A stretch of 10,271 nt of DNA from Candidatus Auribacterota bacterium (GCA_016932965.1 JAFGBW010000227.1:1-10271); one strand, 5' to 3'. Shown: positions 2,426-9,572, counted from the stretch's first letter. Notes: a model not told the origin generated them from the sequence alone. Program-made: numbers and translations.

Positions 2426-2511
2426 TTCTGTCCGAAAAGGCAAGGTTCCCCTTTAAAATGGACCACGCAAAGTCACGGAATGAACAGTTGGCCGGACTAC
2501 CGAAGACAGAA
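2426..2511 (+). promoter_or_regulatory. Cyclic-di-GMP-I (GEMM) riboswitch aptamer
   Basis: This binds a cyclic dinucleotide in the mRNA leader and controls the downstream gene. P1 pairs TTCTGTC (2426-2432) with GACAGAA (2505-2511). P2 pairs GGTTC (2444-2448) with GGACC (2460-2464, one G-U). P3 pairs GTC-A-CGG (2472-2478, A bulged) with CCGGAC (2492-2497). The single-stranded hallmarks AAGGCAA (2437-2443), ACGCAAAG (2465-2472) and CTACCGAA (2497-2504) match the family. By alignment to the Vibrio Vc2 aptamer, G2439, A2469 and C2500 correspond to the ligand-contacting G20, A47 and C92. A G rather than A at position 20 favours cyclic-di-GMP over cGAMP. The usual GNRA loop on P2 is replaced by a longer pyrimidine/A-rich loop. 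It lies 73 bases before the start codon at 2584. Confidence 0.85.
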
Positions 2512-2583: not shown

Positions 2584-3366
2584 ATGAAAAAAACACTCTT
2601 ATCAGCATTAGTCATGCTGGGTCTGATCGGCTATTCTTATGCGGCTGATTTACCCCCTGACATCGTCATTGATCCGCCACCCACAACCATTGATATTGGC
2701 GCTATGTGGAATTTTGTGGTGGACAGCTATCGTGTTGACGTTCTCATTACACCGGCAGAAGAAGCTTCCGGCGTGAATGACCCAGAAAATGACACATGGG
2801 TGGAAATCGTTGATGGAACTCTTGAATTCGGAACCGTGAACATGACGGGATCCGGCATTTATGCGACAACCGGTGCGACAGGTGCGAAAGCCTACCAGGC
2901 TGTTCCCCACAGAGCCGGCAGCGCATGGACTGACACCAGAGTATTTTTCGACAACAACCAGTGCAGAGCCCAGGTTATCGGGAACTTCAGCGGTACGATT
3001 TTCAACATCAACTCGTTACCCATATTTCCTACCGACCCGACCAATGAAAGTGTCATGCATGTCATGGGCGTACACATGAATGAAACAAGTCCTGAAGGTT
3101 ATCCTTTAGTCACTGCCATTGATAACAACATTGTTACAGGGACAGCTTTTGCGACCGTCGGATGGGACACCACCACAGTCACCAATCCGGTCCCAGTGGT
3201 TCCTGGCGACATGATTTTTTACGACTGCGGAACTGGAACCGGCGGATCCAACTACGTGAGCGACATGTTCCAATTATACTTCGCTCTGGATTATTTACCG
3301 ATCGGTGTTCCTGCTGACAGCTACACGATCGACACAAGATGGACATTACATGCGGTATCCTTCTAA
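2584..3366 (+). CDS. Exported beta-rich surface-type protein under riboswitch control (subunit A)
   Basis: A 260-residue protein of unrecognised family. A signal peptide (MKK, hydrophobic core 4-18, cleavage after YSYA at about residue 20) is followed by a proline-rich stretch and a Ser/Thr/Gly/Asp-rich, low-Lys sequence typical of secreted beta proteins. Two mature Cys could form a disulfide. It shares VVDSY (45-49), GDMIFYD (208-214) and a C-terminal block VSDxFxxxFA to the end, closing with Y-x5-WTL (253-255), with the product at 4626. The C-terminus resembles the final strand of Gram-positive WxL domains and of some fimbrial subunits; this is suggestive only. The start is fixed by AAGGAGG five bases upstream. 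The long structured leader and strong terminator after the gene point to a regulated, abundant product. A surface or fibre subunit is my inference. Confidence 0.85.
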   Translation: MKKTLLSALVMLGLIGYSYAADLPPDIVIDPPPTTIDIGAMWNFVVDSYRVDVLITPAEEASGVNDPENDTWVEIVDGTLEFGTVNMTGSGIYATTGATGAKAYQAVPHRAGSAWTDTRVFFDNNQCRAQVIGNFSGTIFNINSLPIFPTDPTNESVMHVMGVHMNETSPEGYPLVTAIDNNIVTGTAFATVGWDTTTVTNPVPVVPGDMIFYDCGTGTGGSNYVSDMFQLYFALDYLPIGVPADSYTIDTRWTLHAVSF

Positions 3367-3381
3367 TTAAAGAAGAATCCC

Positions 3382-3414
3382 AAAAAAGCAGGCCGCAAGG
3401 CCTGCTTTTTTTTT
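3382..3414 (+). terminator. Intrinsic terminator after the first exported-protein gene
   Basis: AGCAGGCC (3387-3394), a GCAA loop and GGCCTGCT (3399-3406) form a perfect 8-bp GC-rich stem with a GNRA tetraloop. It is preceded by six A and followed by a run of nine T (3406-3414). It begins 15 bases after the TAA stop. The A run makes it usable from both sides, although nothing converges here. It should separate or attenuate transcription between the genes at 2584 and 3489. Confidence 0.92.
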
Positions 3415-3488
3415 ATCTTTTCTCATTTCTAAAAAAGGTATATAAAATAACAATTAATTTAAATCTCTTAGGAAATGAGGAAAATATC

Positions 3489-4298
3489 ATGATCAATCTG
3501 ACCACGATGAAAAAAATCGTATTAATAACGTGTTTTATTAGTTTCTCCATCTCTTCTCAAGCGTTCTCATTAAAAATAGACAAGATGCGCATCTATGAAA
3601 CGGTTAAACCAGGCGACGTTATTCAGGGTGTCATCAATGTCATGAACGATTCCAAATCCCCGCAGCAGATATCAACCCTTGTAGAAGATATAGATTTCAA
3701 ACATTCTGAACAACTTATTGATTTCAAAACACTTGGATCACAAACAGACTCATGCGCCCGCTGGATTTCCTTTATGCCTAAAGACATGGAAATCCCTCCG
3801 GTTTCAATGAAGGCAGTGCAATATATTATTTCTGTTCCCAAAGATGTCACGCTGGCTGAATATTATGCTGTCATCTATATTGAATCCGCTGCATCCACAC
3901 CAACTGATCTCTCTGCCACGATTCTTGCGTCATCCAAGGCCAGGATGGCTGTGCTTGTTAAAATCACTCTTTCCGGCCTCGCAGCGCCTCAAGGAACCGT
4001 AGAAAAAATATCTGTTGTTCCGGCTAAAGATGACAAGCCCATGGAAATCACATATGATTTCGATAACACCGGAAACGTCCTGCAAAAGGTGAATGGGAGC
4101 TTTTCAATTATTGACGCAGAGGGGAATCTTTACGGCAGAGGAACACTGAATCAGGGTGTAGCCAAGGGAGGTAATAAAATAAGCATCATAACGACCTGGG
4201 ACGGGGAATTAAGACCGGGAGAATATGATCTGGTCGCTGAATTCAAATACGATCCAAAACAGACTGAAATCAGGGAAGCTCATTTTACAATTGAATAA
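3489..4298 (+). CDS. Exported two-domain immunoglobulin-like protein, probable periplasmic chaperone
   Basis: A 269-residue exported protein. The start is set at 3489 by GAGG (3477-3480) eight bases upstream; the frame stays open further left, but that part would overlap the preceding gene and terminator. A signal peptide ends near SSQA (residue 25). The N-terminal half has the pattern of a chaperone-like beta sandwich: KPGDVIQGVINVMND, then CARWISF, then ISVPKDVTLAEYYAVIY, much like the 'W-I...vP..a..G.Y' strands of DUF916/WxL-interacting and fimbrial-chaperone-like proteins. The C-terminal half (about 150-269) looks like a second sandwich, with DFDNTGNVLQKVNG and LRPGEYDLVAEF. It lies between two paralogous exported proteins and probably assists them. 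It lacks a clear match to classical PapD signature residues, so the family assignment is tentative. A weak TATAAA-like box at 3441-3446 might start it independently. Confidence 0.8.
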   Translation: MINLTTMKKIVLITCFISFSISSQAFSLKIDKMRIYETVKPGDVIQGVINVMNDSKSPQQISTLVEDIDFKHSEQLIDFKTLGSQTDSCARWISFMPKDMEIPPVSMKAVQYIISVPKDVTLAEYYAVIYIESAASTPTDLSATILASSKARMAVLVKITLSGLAAPQGTVEKISVVPAKDDKPMEITYDFDNTGNVLQKVNGSFSIIDAEGNLYGRGTLNQGVAKGGNKISIITTWDGELRPGEYDLVAEFKYDPKQTEIREAHFTIE

Positions 4299-4625
4299 AC
4301 ACGGATAACTAAAATAGGAACCCGGGCTTTCCCCGGTTTATTCAGGATCTTTAAGAAACCGAACGAACGTCTGATACAGAATTAACTTTCAGACTGAGTA
4401 ACGTTACTTTGACTTACAAGGACCAGATTATCACGCTTCCTTCGAAAGCCCGTAACAGCAAATCCATGAATGTTACGAGGATCAGGAAGCAGCAGGTAAC
4501 TGATCTTAGTTCCTTGAATGAACCTAAATCCGAGAATATCGGTAAAAAAATTACCGGACTTCCCATTGTTTTTTTTTGAAAATATGGTAAAATGAATATA
4601 GGATTAGATAAAGGTAAAATCATCC
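4299..4625. other. Intergenic region between the chaperone-like gene and the second subunit gene
   Basis: This 327-bp stretch contains an interrupted hairpin (4319-4326 with 4331-4338, one C-C mismatch) shortly after the stop codon, without a U tract. A second small hairpin CGGTAA/TTACCG (4540-4545 with 4551-4556) is followed 13 bases later by nine T. The right end holds a candidate promoter. The frame 4355-4579 is open for 75 codons, but it has no good start or ribosome site and I do not call it a gene. Confidence 0.5.
4566..4593 (+). promoter_or_regulatory. Candidate extended -10 promoter for the gene at 4626
   Basis: TAAAAT (4588-4593, five of six matches) is preceded by TGG, giving the TGn extended -10 arrangement. 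A weak TTGTTT (4566-4571) stands 16 bases upstream. Transcription would begin near 4600, leaving a leader of about 26 bases. Nine T (4569-4577) overlap the -35 and spacer. It would let the second subunit gene be expressed apart from the riboswitch. Confidence 0.4.
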
Positions 4626-5273
4626 ATGCTTGAAAAATCACATATTGGAAAACGTCTATTACAGTTTTTCACCATCCTGAGTCTTTTATATCCGGGATTG
4701 ATTTTTGCGGAACAAAAGGAAGTAACTGTTCCCGTGGAAACCGTTGTGGACAGCTATCTCACCCTTCTTTTGGAAAGCACCGCGGTTCAAATCAATCAGA
4801 ACGGGGAAGAAATATCAACCAGGCAACTGGCACCCGGAAGCATTTATTTTGGTGAAGTGTTCGGCCAACAGGCCGATAAACCTTCTCTCCCCAATTGTCC
4901 TTTCAGCTGTTCATTTATCACTAACGTGAAAGTCAATATCATCAATAATTCAAAACCCTTTATTTTGAAGCTTCTTTTTGCACCGGTGGAAGATCAAAAA
5001 ACCCTTCTGGAGCTGAAAATGGCAGACACAGACAAGAGCGCTTTGAATATTAAAACATCCGCGACTGAACTGACAAAATTCGCCAAGCATCTGGAATCCC
5101 TGAACATCTGGACTCCCTTTCCTGAAATAGGAGAATTCATCCTGTATGACAGCAAACAAGAGGTAATATCGGATGAATTTACAGTGACTTTCGCGATAAA
5201 AAATTTATATTCCAACACCCAGTCTGCTGCTTACAGTGGAAAATTCATCTGGATTCTCTCCTCTCCTATATAA
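4626..5273 (+). CDS. Exported protein paralogous to the product at 2584 (subunit B)
   Basis: A 215-residue exported protein with no recognised family name. A positively charged start (MLEKSHIGKR) and hydrophobic segment end near LIFA (residue 28). It carries VVDSY at 40-44, GEFILYD at 169-175, ISDEF at 181-185, FAI at 189-191, and a terminal Y-x5-WIL (209-211). These occur in the same order and, over the last 31 residues, with the same spacing as in the protein at 2584, so the two are paralogues. It is shorter in the middle and has a close Cys pair (NCPFSC) that could form a small disulfide loop. The ribosome site AAAGG is weak and about 11 bases upstream, suggesting lower expression than the first subunit. 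A minor or anchoring subunit is an inference from gene order. Confidence 0.82.
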   Translation: MLEKSHIGKRLLQFFTILSLLYPGLIFAEQKEVTVPVETVVDSYLTLLLESTAVQINQNGEEISTRQLAPGSIYFGEVFGQQADKPSLPNCPFSCSFITNVKVNIINNSKPFILKLLFAPVEDQKTLLELKMADTDKSALNIKTSATELTKFAKHLESLNIWTPFPEIGEFILYDSKQEVISDEFTVTFAIKNLYSNTQSAAYSGKFIWILSSPI

Positions 5274-5714
5274 AAAGCCCTGATAACAGAATCTGAGGAT
5301 TGATGTTGCCATTATTTTATATTTTTATTTTGTTTCTATAACGTCTCAAAGAAAAATCGAAAAAAAGACGAATACGAAGACATCCTGTTAAACTAAATTT
5401 TTCCTGTTTTTAAAAACGGCTAAAAGAATCAATGAGTCATGCAAAGGCATGTGTCTTCGGCCTGATCATCAAATCTTCAAATGGTTTTGCTGACTTTTTT
5501 CTCATACCCGATTCTCAATTCTTACTAGTCAGGATTTATTTTTCATGAATCACGTTGACTCATGATTGTATTTCTCAGCTGTCAGTAGTGATCATCCCGT
5601 CTTATTCGATCTGCAACCCTCCAAAAGAAAAAATTCACTTTTCTTTTTATTCTTATCCCATTAATATTCTAAAAATTTAAATGAATGTCCCTGATAAGAA
5701 AGGAAACTGTCACG
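5274..5714. other. AT-rich intergenic region before the FadL-type gene
   Basis: No convincing gene, aptamer or terminator is seen in these 441 bases. There is a short hairpin CATGC/GCATG (5438-5442 with 5447-5451) and a long-loop 5-bp pair CGTCT/AGACG (5342-5346 with 5366-5370). The end of the region carries the ribosome site of the FadL-type gene (AGGA, 5701-5704). A clear -35/-10 pair for that gene was not found, so its promoter remains unassigned. Confidence 0.45.
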
Positions 5715-7028
5715 ATGAAAAAACTCTCTCTACTCATATGGGTAAGCCTCGTTCTCCCTGGTTCAGTCTTTGCAGTAGGCTCAGGCGGATATAATAACGA
5801 TATCGCTGATGCCAGATCTTTGGGAAACGGCATGGCTGTTGTCGCGCGAATAGATTCCCCGGCCTGTAACTGGTATAATCCGGCATGCCTCACCCAAACA
5901 GAAGGGGCTCAAATCTCCCTCTCCGGCATGTACGAAAACGTCACGGGGGATTTTGATTCCGTTTTCGGACTGAACATCGAAACAGAAGAAGGCAATTATT
6001 TTATACCGTCGCTGTTTTACTCCCAAAATATCAATGAAAAACTTGCCTATGGGATCGGAGTCAGTTCTCCCTATGGCTTGAAGACGGAATGGGATAATCC
6101 GATCACCGATTATGTGGCCACTATGACTGAATTGAAGGTCATTTTATTCAATCCCAACATCGCATATACCGTTAATGATCAAATCTCTATTGCTTTTGGA
6201 CTGGATGTGGCCAGAGCCGACGGAACCATGAAAAAAAAGATCAATGAAACGGTTTTAAACAGTGCCCTGTATGCTCTTTCTACCGGTATACTTGCACTGC
6301 TTCCCTCTCCTGATGCCGAATCTTCTCTGGATGGATCAGATACCGGTTATGGCTGGAACGTGGCCCTTCTATATAAGATCAACGACAAAGCCAAAGCAGG
6401 CTTTTCTTACCGGAGTCCCATCGAATTTTCTCTGGACGGAAAAGTGGCTTTTTCCGGATTAAATGGGTTGACTGCTCTCGTATTTGGCAGTGCCAGCTAT
6501 TCAGTGGATGCCTCTCTGGATCTCCCTTTGCCTGCTACCGTGACTGCCGGGATCAGTTACCAGATCTCGGAAAAAACCTCTGTTGAGATGGATATCGAAT
6601 TGGCCCAGTGGTCCAAATTAGACCAATTTAAAATCGATTATAATGGAGAAACAGACCTCACGAGACTTCTTGTACTCAATCTCGACAATCCTGTTGCAAA
6701 AGACTGGGAAGACACCTGGAATACCGCCATCGGCATTGAACACAAAATCGATGAAACCTATGCCGTTGCGGCTGGAATGAGATATCGTCCCACTCCGGTT
6801 CCTGAAGAGACGTTCGAGATTTCCATTCCCTCTTCGGATTTATTTGATATTCACGGCGGAGTGTTCATCTCTTTCGAAAGTTCCAAGCTGGATTTCAGCT
6901 TCAGCTATGTCATGGGAAAAGCCCGGGACATCGACAACTCCGTCGGTTATACTTCCGGCACATCCATCAATGGGGAACATCACTTAAAAGCCCTGGTATT
7001 GGGAATGACTTATACGTATAAGTTCTGA
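5715..7028 (+). CDS. FadL/OmpP1/TodX-family outer-membrane protein
   Basis: A 437-residue beta-barrel of the family that passes long-chain fatty acids or other hydrophobic compounds across the outer membrane. The start is placed at 5715 (MKKLSLL) because AGGA lies ten bases upstream and a clean signal peptide ends at VFA (residue 20); an in-frame ATG ten codons earlier would spoil the signal peptide. The N-terminal hatch is typical: ARSLGNGMAVVA (33-44) and WYNPACL (53-59), with the family's NPA motif. The remainder alternates polar and hydrophobic residues as barrel strands do, and ends in TYTYKF with the terminal aromatic used for outer-membrane insertion. Cys51 and Cys58 flank the NPA region, which is unusual for a porin. 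Substrate cannot be inferred. It is co-directional with the upstream exported-protein genes but separated by a long gap. Confidence 0.88.
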   Translation: MKKLSLLIWVSLVLPGSVFAVGSGGYNNDIADARSLGNGMAVVARIDSPACNWYNPACLTQTEGAQISLSGMYENVTGDFDSVFGLNIETEEGNYFIPSLFYSQNINEKLAYGIGVSSPYGLKTEWDNPITDYVATMTELKVILFNPNIAYTVNDQISIAFGLDVARADGTMKKKINETVLNSALYALSTGILALLPSPDAESSLDGSDTGYGWNVALLYKINDKAKAGFSYRSPIEFSLDGKVAFSGLNGLTALVFGSASYSVDASLDLPLPATVTAGISYQISEKTSVEMDIELAQWSKLDQFKIDYNGETDLTRLLVLNLDNPVAKDWEDTWNTAIGIEHKIDETYAVAAGMRYRPTPVPEETFEISIPSSDLFDIHGGVFISFESSKLDFSFSYVMGKARDIDNSVGYTSGTSINGEHHLKALVLGMTYTYKF

Positions 7029-7093
7029 CCCGAGTGTCTGGTCTGTATTTTGACTGATCACTTTCAGACAACTGATAGGGTGATGAAACAATC

Positions 7094-7120
7094 GAATTCA
7101 TGATTCTGACTCCTGAATTC
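7094..7120. repeat. Inverted repeat GAATTCA/TGAATTC
   Basis: Perfect 7-bp arms (7094-7100 and 7114-7120) with a 13-base loop lie between the convergent FadL-type and motE-like genes. No T run follows on either strand, so it is not a canonical terminator. Chance is possible given the AT-rich arms. Confidence 0.5.
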
Positions 7121-7148
7121 AATAGATCAATGGCTGGTTATTATTGTG

Positions 7149-7164
7149 GTTGTTCATGAACAAC
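7149..7164. repeat. Perfect 16-bp palindrome at the convergent junction
   Basis: GTTGTTCATGAACAAC is fully self-complementary. It lies about 27 bases beyond the end of the motE-like gene and 120 bases beyond the FadL-type gene. It could act as a bidirectional hairpin that helps end transcripts, or as a binding site for a dimeric regulator. There is no adjacent T tract. It occurs only once in the window. Confidence 0.6.
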
Positions 7165-7190
7165 GCTCAGATCCCATGTCATTTTTACAC

Positions 7191-7820
7191 TTATTTGATC
7201 ACCAGTTTTTTCAGCATCTCAGCGAGCTTTGCAGCACGCCTTGCGTGTTCACTGTTCACCGAAGCATAATTTCCCAATAATTTGGCTGAATTCCTCGGCT
7301 TCATGTAAGATAAAATGCTGACAACCGTATCATCCGGCATCTGGGCTATCATGGGATTGGCATTTTCAGGGGAAAGCGTTTCGAACATCCTGGCCATCTT
7401 TTTGAGGTTCTTTTTTTCCGTGTCTGTAATGAGAGGCATGGCTTCATTGATATAAACCGTCATCTTCTGCAACATGTCCTCCACCTCTTTTTGCCTGGCA
7501 ACGAGCTGCTCCTCACGTTCCTTGAAACGTGACTCGCGAAGCTGTAAATTTTCTTCGCGGGTCATCAGATTCTTTTCCTTTTCGATAAGCTTGGAAGCCA
7601 ATTCATCCACCTGCTTGGACGTCCTGGTTTCTTCAACCTTGATCAGCTTTTCTTCCTGCGCCTTCAAGGCCTCGTTTTCCTCCTGGATTTCTTCAATCTT
7701 ATCCCGGAACAAACGGGCAAGAATTCTATCCCTGAATTCAGGTTTCCCTATGAGAAGTCCCAAGGTCAGGACAACCACAATTCCCACGGCTATGAAGACC
7801 AGTTTAATGATGTTTGGCAT
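7191..7820 (-). CDS. MotE/YlxF-like flagellar protein with MgtE-N-type C-terminal domain
   Basis: A 209-residue membrane-anchored protein. One transmembrane segment (about 5-24) is followed by a long charged coiled coil (about 38-125) and a compact helical domain (about 140-205) with the MgtE N-domain pattern, for example FETLSPENANPMIAQMPDD (146-164) then VVSILSYM. This architecture belongs to the MotE (rhizobial motility chaperone) and YlxF (between fliJ and fliK in Bacillus) group. Its place directly after fliJ, with a 17-bp overlap, supports a flagellar role outside the cytoplasmic membrane, probably in stator or export-apparatus function. The exact job is not known from sequence. AAGGGTG (7831-7825 on the minus strand) serves as ribosome site. 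It is the last gene of the operon here. Confidence 0.85.
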   Translation of the reverse strand: MPNIIKLVFIAVGIVVVLTLGLLIGKPEFRDRILARLFRDKIEEIQEENEALKAQEEKLIKVEETRTSKQVDELASKLIEKEKNLMTREENLQLRESRFKEREEQLVARQKEVEDMLQKMTVYINEAMPLITDTEKKNLKKMARMFETLSPENANPMIAQMPDDTVVSILSYMKPRNSAKLLGNYASVNSEHARRAAKLAEMLKKLVIK

Positions 7821-8256
7821 GGTTCACCCTTAAAACGCTTATTTCATCCAACTCTTTTCGTTCCAGCTTTTCGGCCTCTGACTGGTAAATCTTGTGCAAT
7901 TTATCCCGAAAAGTGAAAAGTATTTTTTTTCTTTTCATGGCTTCGGCCAGTTTGATGCGATAGTCATCGACGCATTTTTCAGCCTTCTTTGTTTCAATCT
8001 TCTGCTCTATGATTCTTCTCCGCAACATCATCATGAACATCTCATAAGAACGGATCGTTTTGATATCCGGAACCTTTTTCTCTTTTTCAGCGTAAGAAAG
8101 CGCTTCCGATTCTTTTAAATAATTCTGAAGGCGATCCAGGATCTGTTTCTGCTTCAGCCATTCCTTAATGGTTTCAGCCAGTTCCCTTTTCCGTTCGTCC
8201 TCACGGATCTCCCTTTCCCTTAATACCGCCTGCAGTTTGAAACTAAATTTCTTCAT
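7804..8256 (-). CDS. fliJ: Flagellar export chaperone FliJ
   Basis: A 150-residue, highly charged and almost wholly helical coiled-coil protein, of normal FliJ length, beginning with the characteristic FSFKLQAVLREREIRED segment (residues 4-20). FliJ acts as the central stalk of the FliI hexamer in the cytoplasm, links the ATPase to the FlhA gate, and cycles export chaperones. Sequence conservation in this family is low, so the position between fliI and the motE-like gene is an important part of the evidence. The ATG overlaps the fliI stop as ATGA, so translation is coupled; the local ribosome site is weak. Confidence 0.92.
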   Translation of the reverse strand: MKKFSFKLQAVLREREIREDERKRELAETIKEWLKQKQILDRLQNYLKESEALSYAEKEKKVPDIKTIRSYEMFMMMLRRRIIEQKIETKKAEKCVDDYRIKLAEAMKRKKILFTFRDKLHKIYQSEAEKLERKELDEISVLRVNHAKHH

Positions 8257-9572
8257 TTTTCAAAAACCGCTCTGAACTTCATCATTGTTTCTTCAAACGG
8301 ACACATTTCACGTATTCCCTGAATCAAAAAGGCATTGATCGCATCGATCTTGGAAATCGCTTCATCGATTTTAGGATTAGATCCTGATACATAAGCTCCG
8401 ATATTAATGAGATCCCTGGCTTCCTCATACACAGAAACCAGCTCCTTCATTTGCTTAGCCAACCGGAGTTGTTCTTCCGTGCAGACATCCACGGACAGCC
8501 TGGATACGCTGTCTAACAAGTCGATGGCCGGATAATGATTGGCAGCAGCCAGTCTTCGCTGAAGCATGATGTGTCCATCTAAAATGGACCGGCAGGCGTC
8601 TGAGATCGGCTCGTTAAAATCATCCGCGTCCACCAGCACGGTATATAATGCCGTGATGGCTCCTTCTGCACTCATGCCTGTTCGTTCCATGAGCCGTGGA
8701 AGAAGAGTAAAAACACTCGGAGTATAACCCTTGGTCGTAGGGGGTTCTCCAATGGATAAACCAATTTCCCTCTGAGCCATGGCAAAACGGGTGATTGAAT
8801 CCATCATAAATAAAACAGACAATCCCTTTTCACGAAAATATTCCGCAACAGCAGTCGCCGTGTAAGCGCCCTTGATTCTCATGAGGGCAGGCTCATCGGA
8901 TGTGACCGCCACTACCACCGACCGTTTTAATCCTTCCTCGCCCAATGATTCTTCTATAAATTCCCGCACTTCCCTTCCGCGTTCACCAATGAGCGCAATC
9001 ACATTTAGTTGCGATTCCGCCCCTCTGGCCATCATTCCCAAAAGAGTGGATTTCCCCACACCTGAACCGGAAAAAATCCCCACCCTTTGCCCCATTCCGA
9101 GCGTGAGGCAACTGTCAACGGCCTTAATCCCAACATGAAATGCCGACTTGATTCGCGGTCTTTTCATTGCAGGCGGAATTCTTCCGGTTGTGGAATAAAA
9201 TTCCACCCCCGTTATTGGCCCCTTTCCGTCTATCGGTTCTCCGACACCGTTTATGACCCGACCCTGCAAATTCATTCCTACAGGTACTTTTAACGGACGA
9301 CCGGTTGAGACCACTCGGCAACCGGGCGCAATACCCTCCATGGATCCGTAAGGCATGATATAAAAAACTGAATCTTTGAATCCCACCACCTCCCCCTTGA
9401 TCACACTGTCGCCTTCGTGAGAATAAACATGGCACAAATCTCCGATGGAAACAGGAGGTCCTTCCGACTCGATCACTAATCCAGTCACCCGCTTGACCTT
9501 CCCCATCCTTCTGAAGGTCACGGACCTTGCAACCCTTGTATGAAATGGTTTTAAATCAATGAGCGTCTCCAC
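8253..9572 (-). CDS. fliI: Flagellum-specific ATP synthase/export ATPase FliI
   Basis: The ATPase of the flagellar type III export apparatus, related to the F1 beta subunit. I place the start at GTG (9572-9570), giving 439 residues beginning VETLIDLKPF. GGGAG lies upstream of this codon, and the N-terminus then matches other FliI proteins; a longer reading from an ATG at 9629 would add 19 unrelated residues deep inside fliH. The N-terminal beta barrel is followed by the Walker A motif SGSGVGKST at about 168-176, GERGREVREF about 196-205, and Walker B LFMMD about 254-258. SxGEPPTTKGYTPSVF shows the expected catalytic-domain conservation. It overlaps fliH by 17 bp and fliJ by the ATGA junction, so the export complex FliH-FliI-FliJ is made from one transcript. 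Confidence 0.97.
   Translation of the reverse strand: METLIDLKPFHTRVARSVTFRRMGKVKRVTGLVIESEGPPVSIGDLCHVYSHEGDSVIKGEVVGFKDSVFYIMPYGSMEGIAPGCRVVSTGRPLKVPVGMNLQGRVINGVGEPIDGKGPITGVEFYSTTGRIPPAMKRPRIKSAFHVGIKAVDSCLTLGMGQRVGIFSGSGVGKSTLLGMMARGAESQLNVIALIGERGREVREFIEESLGEEGLKRSVVVAVTSDEPALMRIKGAYTATAVAEYFREKGLSVLFMMDSITRFAMAQREIGLSIGEPPTTKGYTPSVFTLLPRLMERTGMSAEGAITALYTVLVDADDFNEPISDACRSILDGHIMLQRRLAAANHYPAIDLLDSVSRLSVDVCTEEQLRLAKQMKELVSVYEEARDLINIGAYVSGSNPKIDEAISKIDAINAFLIQGIREMCPFEETMMKFRAVFEK

Follow-up and report, generated by a model that had tools for sequence, protein, structure and literature searches.

What do two exported proteins encoded on either side of a chaperone-like gene build in a double-membraned bacterium? 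The window, which is the entire 10,271-bp contig C11 of a Candidatus Auribacterota genome (G000), raises this question in its central part. A preliminary description had placed two paralogous exported proteins around a chaperone-like protein, had likened the subunit-chaperone-subunit order to that of fimbrial operons, and had proposed a surface fibre or coat system. The order was confirmed from the ORFs: genes A and B flank a gene for an exported two-domain protein (3489-4298), and the whole window is laid out as follows.

Before the riboswitch, minus strand: leuA and ilvC
2429-2504, plus strand: very probable c-di-GMP-I riboswitch aptamer (Rfam RF01051)
2584-3366, plus strand: gene A (ORF), exported protein of 260 aa, presumed major subunit
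3382-3411, plus strand: strong intrinsic terminator (13-bp stem and T run), directly 3' of A
~3489-4298, plus strand: gene for a chaperone of, very probably, the WxLIP family, 269 aa (ORF and profile matches)
4626-5273, plus strand: gene B (ORF), exported protein of 215 aa, presumed minor subunit
5700-7028, plus strand: FadL/TodX porin (PF03349, E 2e-69)
After the porin, minus strand: flagellar genes

The leuA, ilvC and flagellar genes are what we take them to be from reading their sequences. The chaperone start was taken as ~3489; a longer ORF, from 3339, would overlap A. The terminator lies between A and the chaperone gene, so a single transcript is not required, and A is probably expressed at a level well above that of the downstream genes. 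A gap of 327 bp separates the chaperone gene from B. No Pfam or NCBIfam family matched A, B or the middle protein above its cut-off; a hit to UpsA in NCBIfam scored 19 bits (E 9e-4) where the cut-off is 130, and was dismissed as noise, and Rfam matches to psRNA6 and ST7-OT4_3 in the window were attributed to chance.

The kinship of A and B was examined first by the blocks that the preliminary description had named, all of which are present in both proteins and in the same order: VVDSY (A45, B40), GDMIFYD at A208 versus GEFILYD at B169, and a C-terminal block that reads VSDMFQLYFALDYL-x8-Y-x5-WTL in A (W at A253) and ISDEFTVTFAIKNL-x8-Y-x5-WIL in B (W at B209). The nucleotide match reported with them was also found, as the string GTGGACAGCTATC is common to the two genes. 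Alignment of the first and third proteins, which had been suggested as a check, gave E 0.006 in two-sequence BLASTP and a Smith-Waterman score of 47 for the mature chains (shuffles, 30.6+-4.8; p 0.008), while the score of the ungapped C-terminal block was matched in 45 of 20,000 shuffles (~0.002) and in 198 of 20,000 random real pairs (~0.01). Judged by these alignments, homology between A and B is above chance but modest, and not strong alone; common descent with later divergence is therefore probable, and paralogy is likely, if unproven. Partners outside the window are better evidence than the similarity between A and B. The best partner of A is a 221-aa subunit (sub221) encoded on another contig of the same genome (C120), with a Smith-Waterman score of 59 (versus 31+-4.7) that exceeds those of all 158 background ORFs. 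For the C terminus of B, the top score (43, exceeding all 193 background ORFs) belongs to a three-domain subunit of G001 (JAFGJP010000265.1), a relative of the window genome from the same order. As single-sequence queries across the phylum A and B matched themselves only, and a leave-out profile built from the subunits found elsewhere fails to recognise either of them (A, E 55; B, E 1.7; Z 1000).

Those other subunits form two families that can be joined. The 221-aa subunit matches the 225-aa subunit of G001 (E 5e-29), the 489-aa subunit on C120 (sub489) matches the 467-aa subunit of G001 (E 4e-27), and the 225- and 467-aa subunits match each other (E 1.6e-4), which links both families. A C-terminal [YF]-x3-hydrophobic motif is found in 22 of 25 subunits and in 28 of the 199 locus ORFs of at least 100 aa, a count that includes the subunits themselves. 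In many subunits a first [WFY]xL motif is also visible, and the whole resembles, as a resemblance only, the dual WxL motif. The Pfam WxL model had no match at E 1 among the 25 subunits, and a PDB search with the subunit profile returned no match.

The middle protein gives a clearer signal. It has a signal peptide and two Ig-like domains, no C-terminal membrane helix, and 31-34% identity to the 270-aa chaperone of G001 (E 2.7e-36). In a screen of 384 genomes, a four-member profile of this family had matches in 43, and a leave-out profile made from other phyla alone recognised the window chaperone (E 4e-52). When a 20-member profile was compared with the PDB, the sole strong match was EfmWxLIP1 (9i25, 9i1y; E 2e-10), the WxL-interacting protein of Enterococcus faecium, with an alignment over residues 31-266 that covers both its PGBD and HBD domains. 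EfmWxLIP1 was found again (E 7e-8; next PDB match, E 0.011) when the membrane-anchored members were dropped and the profile consisted of 13 members, nearly all of them from loci that also carry an usher-like gene. The four-member profile had no PDB match, and matches appeared with 13-20 members only. PF06030 matches 6 of the 20 family members (best E 3.7e-5), and the window chaperone itself has no Pfam match to PF06030 or PF11797. Judging from these profiles, we are highly confident that the window chaperone belongs to the WxLIP (DUF916-DUF3324) family. Thus, the preliminary description was right in calling the middle protein chaperone-type, and its family is WxLIP rather than demonstrably PapD-like.

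A C-terminal transmembrane helix is present in nearly all Gram-positive WxLIP members. The window chaperone ends with its second domain, and its best 19-residue hydropathy after residue 150 is 1.25, versus 3.2-3.6 in locus L103, which lacks an usher-like gene and whose two proteins are the only ones among these loci with such a helix; the helix is absent from usher-linked chaperones. In L103 (genome G102, 5257-8830) genes for the two helix-bearing paralogues and subunit-like genes take turns along the locus; the genome is a single contig of 0.8 Mb, and its host is probably a candidate-phyla-radiation bacterium. The window chaperone carries IDKMRIYETVK at residue 30 (2 of 400,000 shuffles), which was compared with NQIDKxxxYFDLK, the motif that WxLIP proteins carry close to the mature N terminus; its close relatives lack IDK, so IDKxxxY..VK was dropped as a WxLIP signature and is not used as evidence. 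AlphaFold2 models with two and three sequences had pLDDT values of 42 and 31 and were unusable. WxLIP proteins have been described as two Ig-like domains plus a membrane helix, and in the AlphaFold2 prediction a gap in the WxL sandwich is filled by a strand from WxLIP (PMC10599100). This is donor-strand logic, predicted for the Gram-positive pair and extended here by analogy, and it is probable that A and B are clients of the window chaperone.

How would such clients reach the surface? The preliminary description had found no usher. This holds for the window and for the classical family: PF00577 was found in 0 of 44 Auribacterota genomes, G000 included, and the E. coli control was positive. 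It does not hold for related loci. In G001 a minus-strand operon consists of an aptamer, a 156-aa exported protein, the 225- and 467-aa subunits, the chaperone, and a 911-aa usher-like protein, with exopolysaccharide genes divergent from it. A homologue of this usher-like protein (876 aa; E 2.2e-28) is encoded in the window genome on C120, where its gene, cut by the contig end, comes after sub221 and sub489, matching the 225- and 467-aa subunits of G001. Directly upstream of sub221 in the same locus (L054, G000:C120:6000-17521, 82-11522) lie curlin-repeat, CsgE, CsgF, CsgG, HlyD-like and PilZ glycosyltransferase genes; the locus is a combined matrix cluster of curli and PilZ genes with sub221, sub489 and the usher-like gene.

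Among 20 loci retrieved by chaperone match only, 12 have an usher-like neighbour near the chaperone gene, and in most loci examined subunit genes adjoin the chaperone. Adjacency of subunit and chaperone is conserved across genomes, G001 among them, and the subunit-chaperone-subunit order is supported as well. Several usher-like proteins carry T2SS-T3SS_pil_N near the N terminus, and SdrD_B or CarboxypepD_reg is found at the C terminus. Their middle region has a barrel-like alternation of hydrophobicity (z 1.1-4.7; the FadL porin of the window, 4.9; background median, 0.3). With the end domains removed from the profile, this barrel region was unrecognisable across phyla, only the ends being recognisable, and E-values of the second-round profile and of one further search are not independent, as both already contained sequences that they went on to find.

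One way to explain these genes is that they encode classical PapD/PapC-type chaperone-usher fimbriae that have diverged beyond Pfam detection. The gene logic is alike, and the chaperone has weak matches to PRK09918 (E 0.04) and EcpB (E 1). However, none of the PapD-type chains in the PDB comes within many orders of magnitude of WxLIP in its match to the chaperone profile, and the absence of PF00577 extends from the 44 genomes, on which a classical usher was rejected, to the usher-like proteins, none of which matches it. These proteins also have pil_N at the N terminus and SdrD_B at the C terminus, domains that are, to our knowledge, not parts of PapC. We therefore regard classical fimbriae as highly improbable.

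A different possibility is that A and B, as WxL-like proteins, are anchored singly, through a binding domain, on the cell surface or within the exopolysaccharide matrix, and that the chaperone-like protein stays with them permanently instead of serving as an assembly chaperone. This is what has been proposed for Gram-positive WxL clusters, which comprise small WxL, large WxL and WxLIP proteins and are viewed as a platform that is bound to peptidoglycan (PMC10599100; PMC9772566). The window likewise has one WxLIP-like and two client-like proteins, and the usher-like gene is missing from some loci: five in the same phylum (L008, L009, L104, L108 and L109) have the chaperone and no usher-like gene, so members of the chaperone family can occur without an usher. 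On the other hand, usher-like genes adjoin 12 of the 20 loci, and the window chaperone lacks the membrane helix that is seen in usher-less L103. A non-polymeric coat of this kind thus seems rather unlikely.

The usher-less loci have features of their own. In L008 and L009, from two other Auribacterota, the chaperone comes after a pair of large exported paralogues, and next to it is a 1620-aa protein whose N-terminal part is glycoside-hydrolase-like; L008 also has a c-di-GMP-I riboswitch, which is oriented divergently to these genes. L104, L108 and L109, from other Auribacterota, contain subunits and the chaperone with no recognised usher-like gene, and the genes that come next in L104 and L108 encode a protein of 1260 aa and one that is PEP-CTERM-like.

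What controls the locus? The preliminary description missed both the riboswitch before A, to which expression of the locus appears to be tied, and the terminator after A that we read from the sequence. The aptamer ends 80 nt 5' of A and matches RF01051 over the full model (1-87) with 33.3 bits (E 1.2e-4, 700 bases searched), 1.7 bits below the gathering cut-off of 35 bits. The P1 arms differ in sequence and all pair (TCTGTC/GACAGA in the window, GACT/AGTC in G001, ATCAAC/GTTGAT on contig C149 of the window genome), and the aptamer of G001, with 63-64 bits, lies directly 5' of the homologous operon, in the same position as that of the window. Given a full-length covariance-model match with a conserved core, 2429-2504 is very likely a c-di-GMP riboswitch. 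The ligand-discriminating position (G20, Vc2 numbering) is G, from which we presume that the ligand is c-di-GMP rather than cGAMP, as is known for GEMM riboswitches. In the window the minimum-free-energy fold is one in which the 5' arm of the aptamer (GGUUCCCCUU) pairs with the Shine-Dalgarno region (AAGGAGGCAACC), and this predicted ligand-free fold suggests that ligand binding would free the ribosome site of A, that is, an ON switch. A perfect 7-bp hairpin, GUCCUGG-UAAG-CCAGGAC, lies at 2383-2400, ~30 nt 5' of the aptamer.

The coupling recurs elsewhere. Among 24 chaperone-centred loci (~0.3 Mb) there are 7 aptamers of the c-di-GMP-I type, and 6 of them, spread over 5 loci, lie directly 5' of a subunit gene on the same strand. 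The 44 Auribacterota genomes contain 52 above-cut-off aptamers, or ~0.4 per Mb, so ~0.15 would be expected in 0.3 Mb if the Auribacterota density stands as a proxy for other phyla. Three loci retrieved by chaperone match only provide examples: L092 (55.9 bits) and L106 (75.8 bits) each have a c-di-GMP-I riboswitch directly before a same-strand subunit gene, and L105 (G143, 4278-7675) has two c-di-GMP-I-GGC riboswitches, each 5' of its own subunit gene, in the order subunit-subunit-subunit-chaperone-usher-like, with a dockerin-like tail on the chaperone. Many c-di-GMP-I aptamers in Auribacterota precede type IV pilin-like or exported proteins. The one on C149 of the window genome (L055, 6074-5990, minus strand, 66.8 bits) comes before a 92-aa exported protein (5918-5640, minus strand), whose mature start, ASLPPDI, resembles ADLPPDI of A; a bacterial RNase P RNA (6233-6592) adjoins this riboswitch.

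These observations bear on the view that the genes are loose neighbours, the riboswitch controlling A alone as an unrelated secreted protein and the chaperone-like and B genes being independent. The terminator after A, the 327-bp gap before B and the weak similarity between A and B would all fit it. However, most of the loci examined have subunit genes next to the chaperone gene, five loci with this chaperone family have riboswitches 5' of their subunit genes, and A resembles the usher-linked sub221; we find independence very unlikely.

We lean towards reading the locus as a c-di-GMP-controlled surface fibre or coat of the WxL/WxLIP type, chaperone-escorted and usher-like, in a double-membraned bacterium. 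This reading starts from the observed genes, chaperone family membership, aptamer and conserved neighbourhood, and in it c-di-GMP would alter the expression of A by binding to the aptamer of its 5' leader. A (major) and B (minor or terminal) would be exported to the periplasm by the signal peptides read from their sequences, where the WxLIP-family chaperone would escort them, probably by donating a beta-strand to a WxL-like sandwich that is incomplete. An usher-like outer-membrane protein, with a pil_N-like domain at its N terminus, a barrel-like middle and C-terminal SdrD_B/CarboxypepD_reg domains, would then hand the subunits to the surface; its gene is present, and on balance we favour this route of export. 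There the subunits may assemble into a fibre or matrix coat, with polymerisation a somewhat more tentative step. A surface fibre or coat, as originally proposed, is supported as the likely product.

How does this compare with known systems? According to published descriptions, WxL proteins occur almost only in Firmicutes. Like the Firmicutes cluster, the window encodes a two-domain Ig-like partner that belongs to this family (profile matches to EfmWxLIP1, E 2e-10 and 7e-8) with two clients, A and B, both of which end in Y-x5-WxL, and its genome has small and large (three-domain) clients (sub221 and sub489). Unlike that cluster, the host is double-membraned, the chaperone lacks the C-terminal membrane helix, the clients have no Pfam WxL match, related loci carry an usher-like outer-membrane protein, and the window has a c-di-GMP riboswitch. 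The chaperone-usher pathway (PapD/PapC; archaic Csu type) shares the subunit-chaperone-usher order, a periplasmic two-domain chaperone and a barrel-like outer-membrane gene (770-1070 aa here), whereas here there is no PF00577 or PapD Pfam match and the usher consists of pil_N, barrel-like and SdrD_B/CarboxypepD_reg parts. Riboswitches of the c-di-GMP-I (GEMM-I) class upstream of surface genes are known (RF01051 / RF03167). Our literature search found no paper that ties a c-di-GMP-I riboswitch to an operon with a WxLIP-type chaperone and an usher-like gene, nor, with preprints outside its coverage, one that combines WxL or DUF916 with an usher.

The locus is real, conserved and linked to c-di-GMP; we read it as a surface-assembly locus of WxL/WxLIP type in a double-membraned phylum, and the case for an unrecognised pathway is plausible. 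More tentatively, we propose that, apart from classical chaperone-usher systems, there may be a widespread double-membrane pathway in which a soluble WxLIP-type chaperone escorts WxL-like subunits to pil_N/barrel/SdrD_B usher-like secretion, often under c-di-GMP riboswitch control, with Gram-positive WxL/WxLIP as the single-membrane counterpart. That this partner family also occurs next to usher-like outer-membrane genes suggests an assembly-chaperone role for WxLIP. In many related loci the WxLIP-type escort is encoded next to a presumed outer-membrane export pore, and this points to a way of assembling surface structures that has drawn little notice in double-membraned bacteria. The C120 cluster connects the system with curli and exopolysaccharide and hence with the biofilm matrix, and the riboswitch offers a natural switch for an experiment on strand lending by the chaperone.
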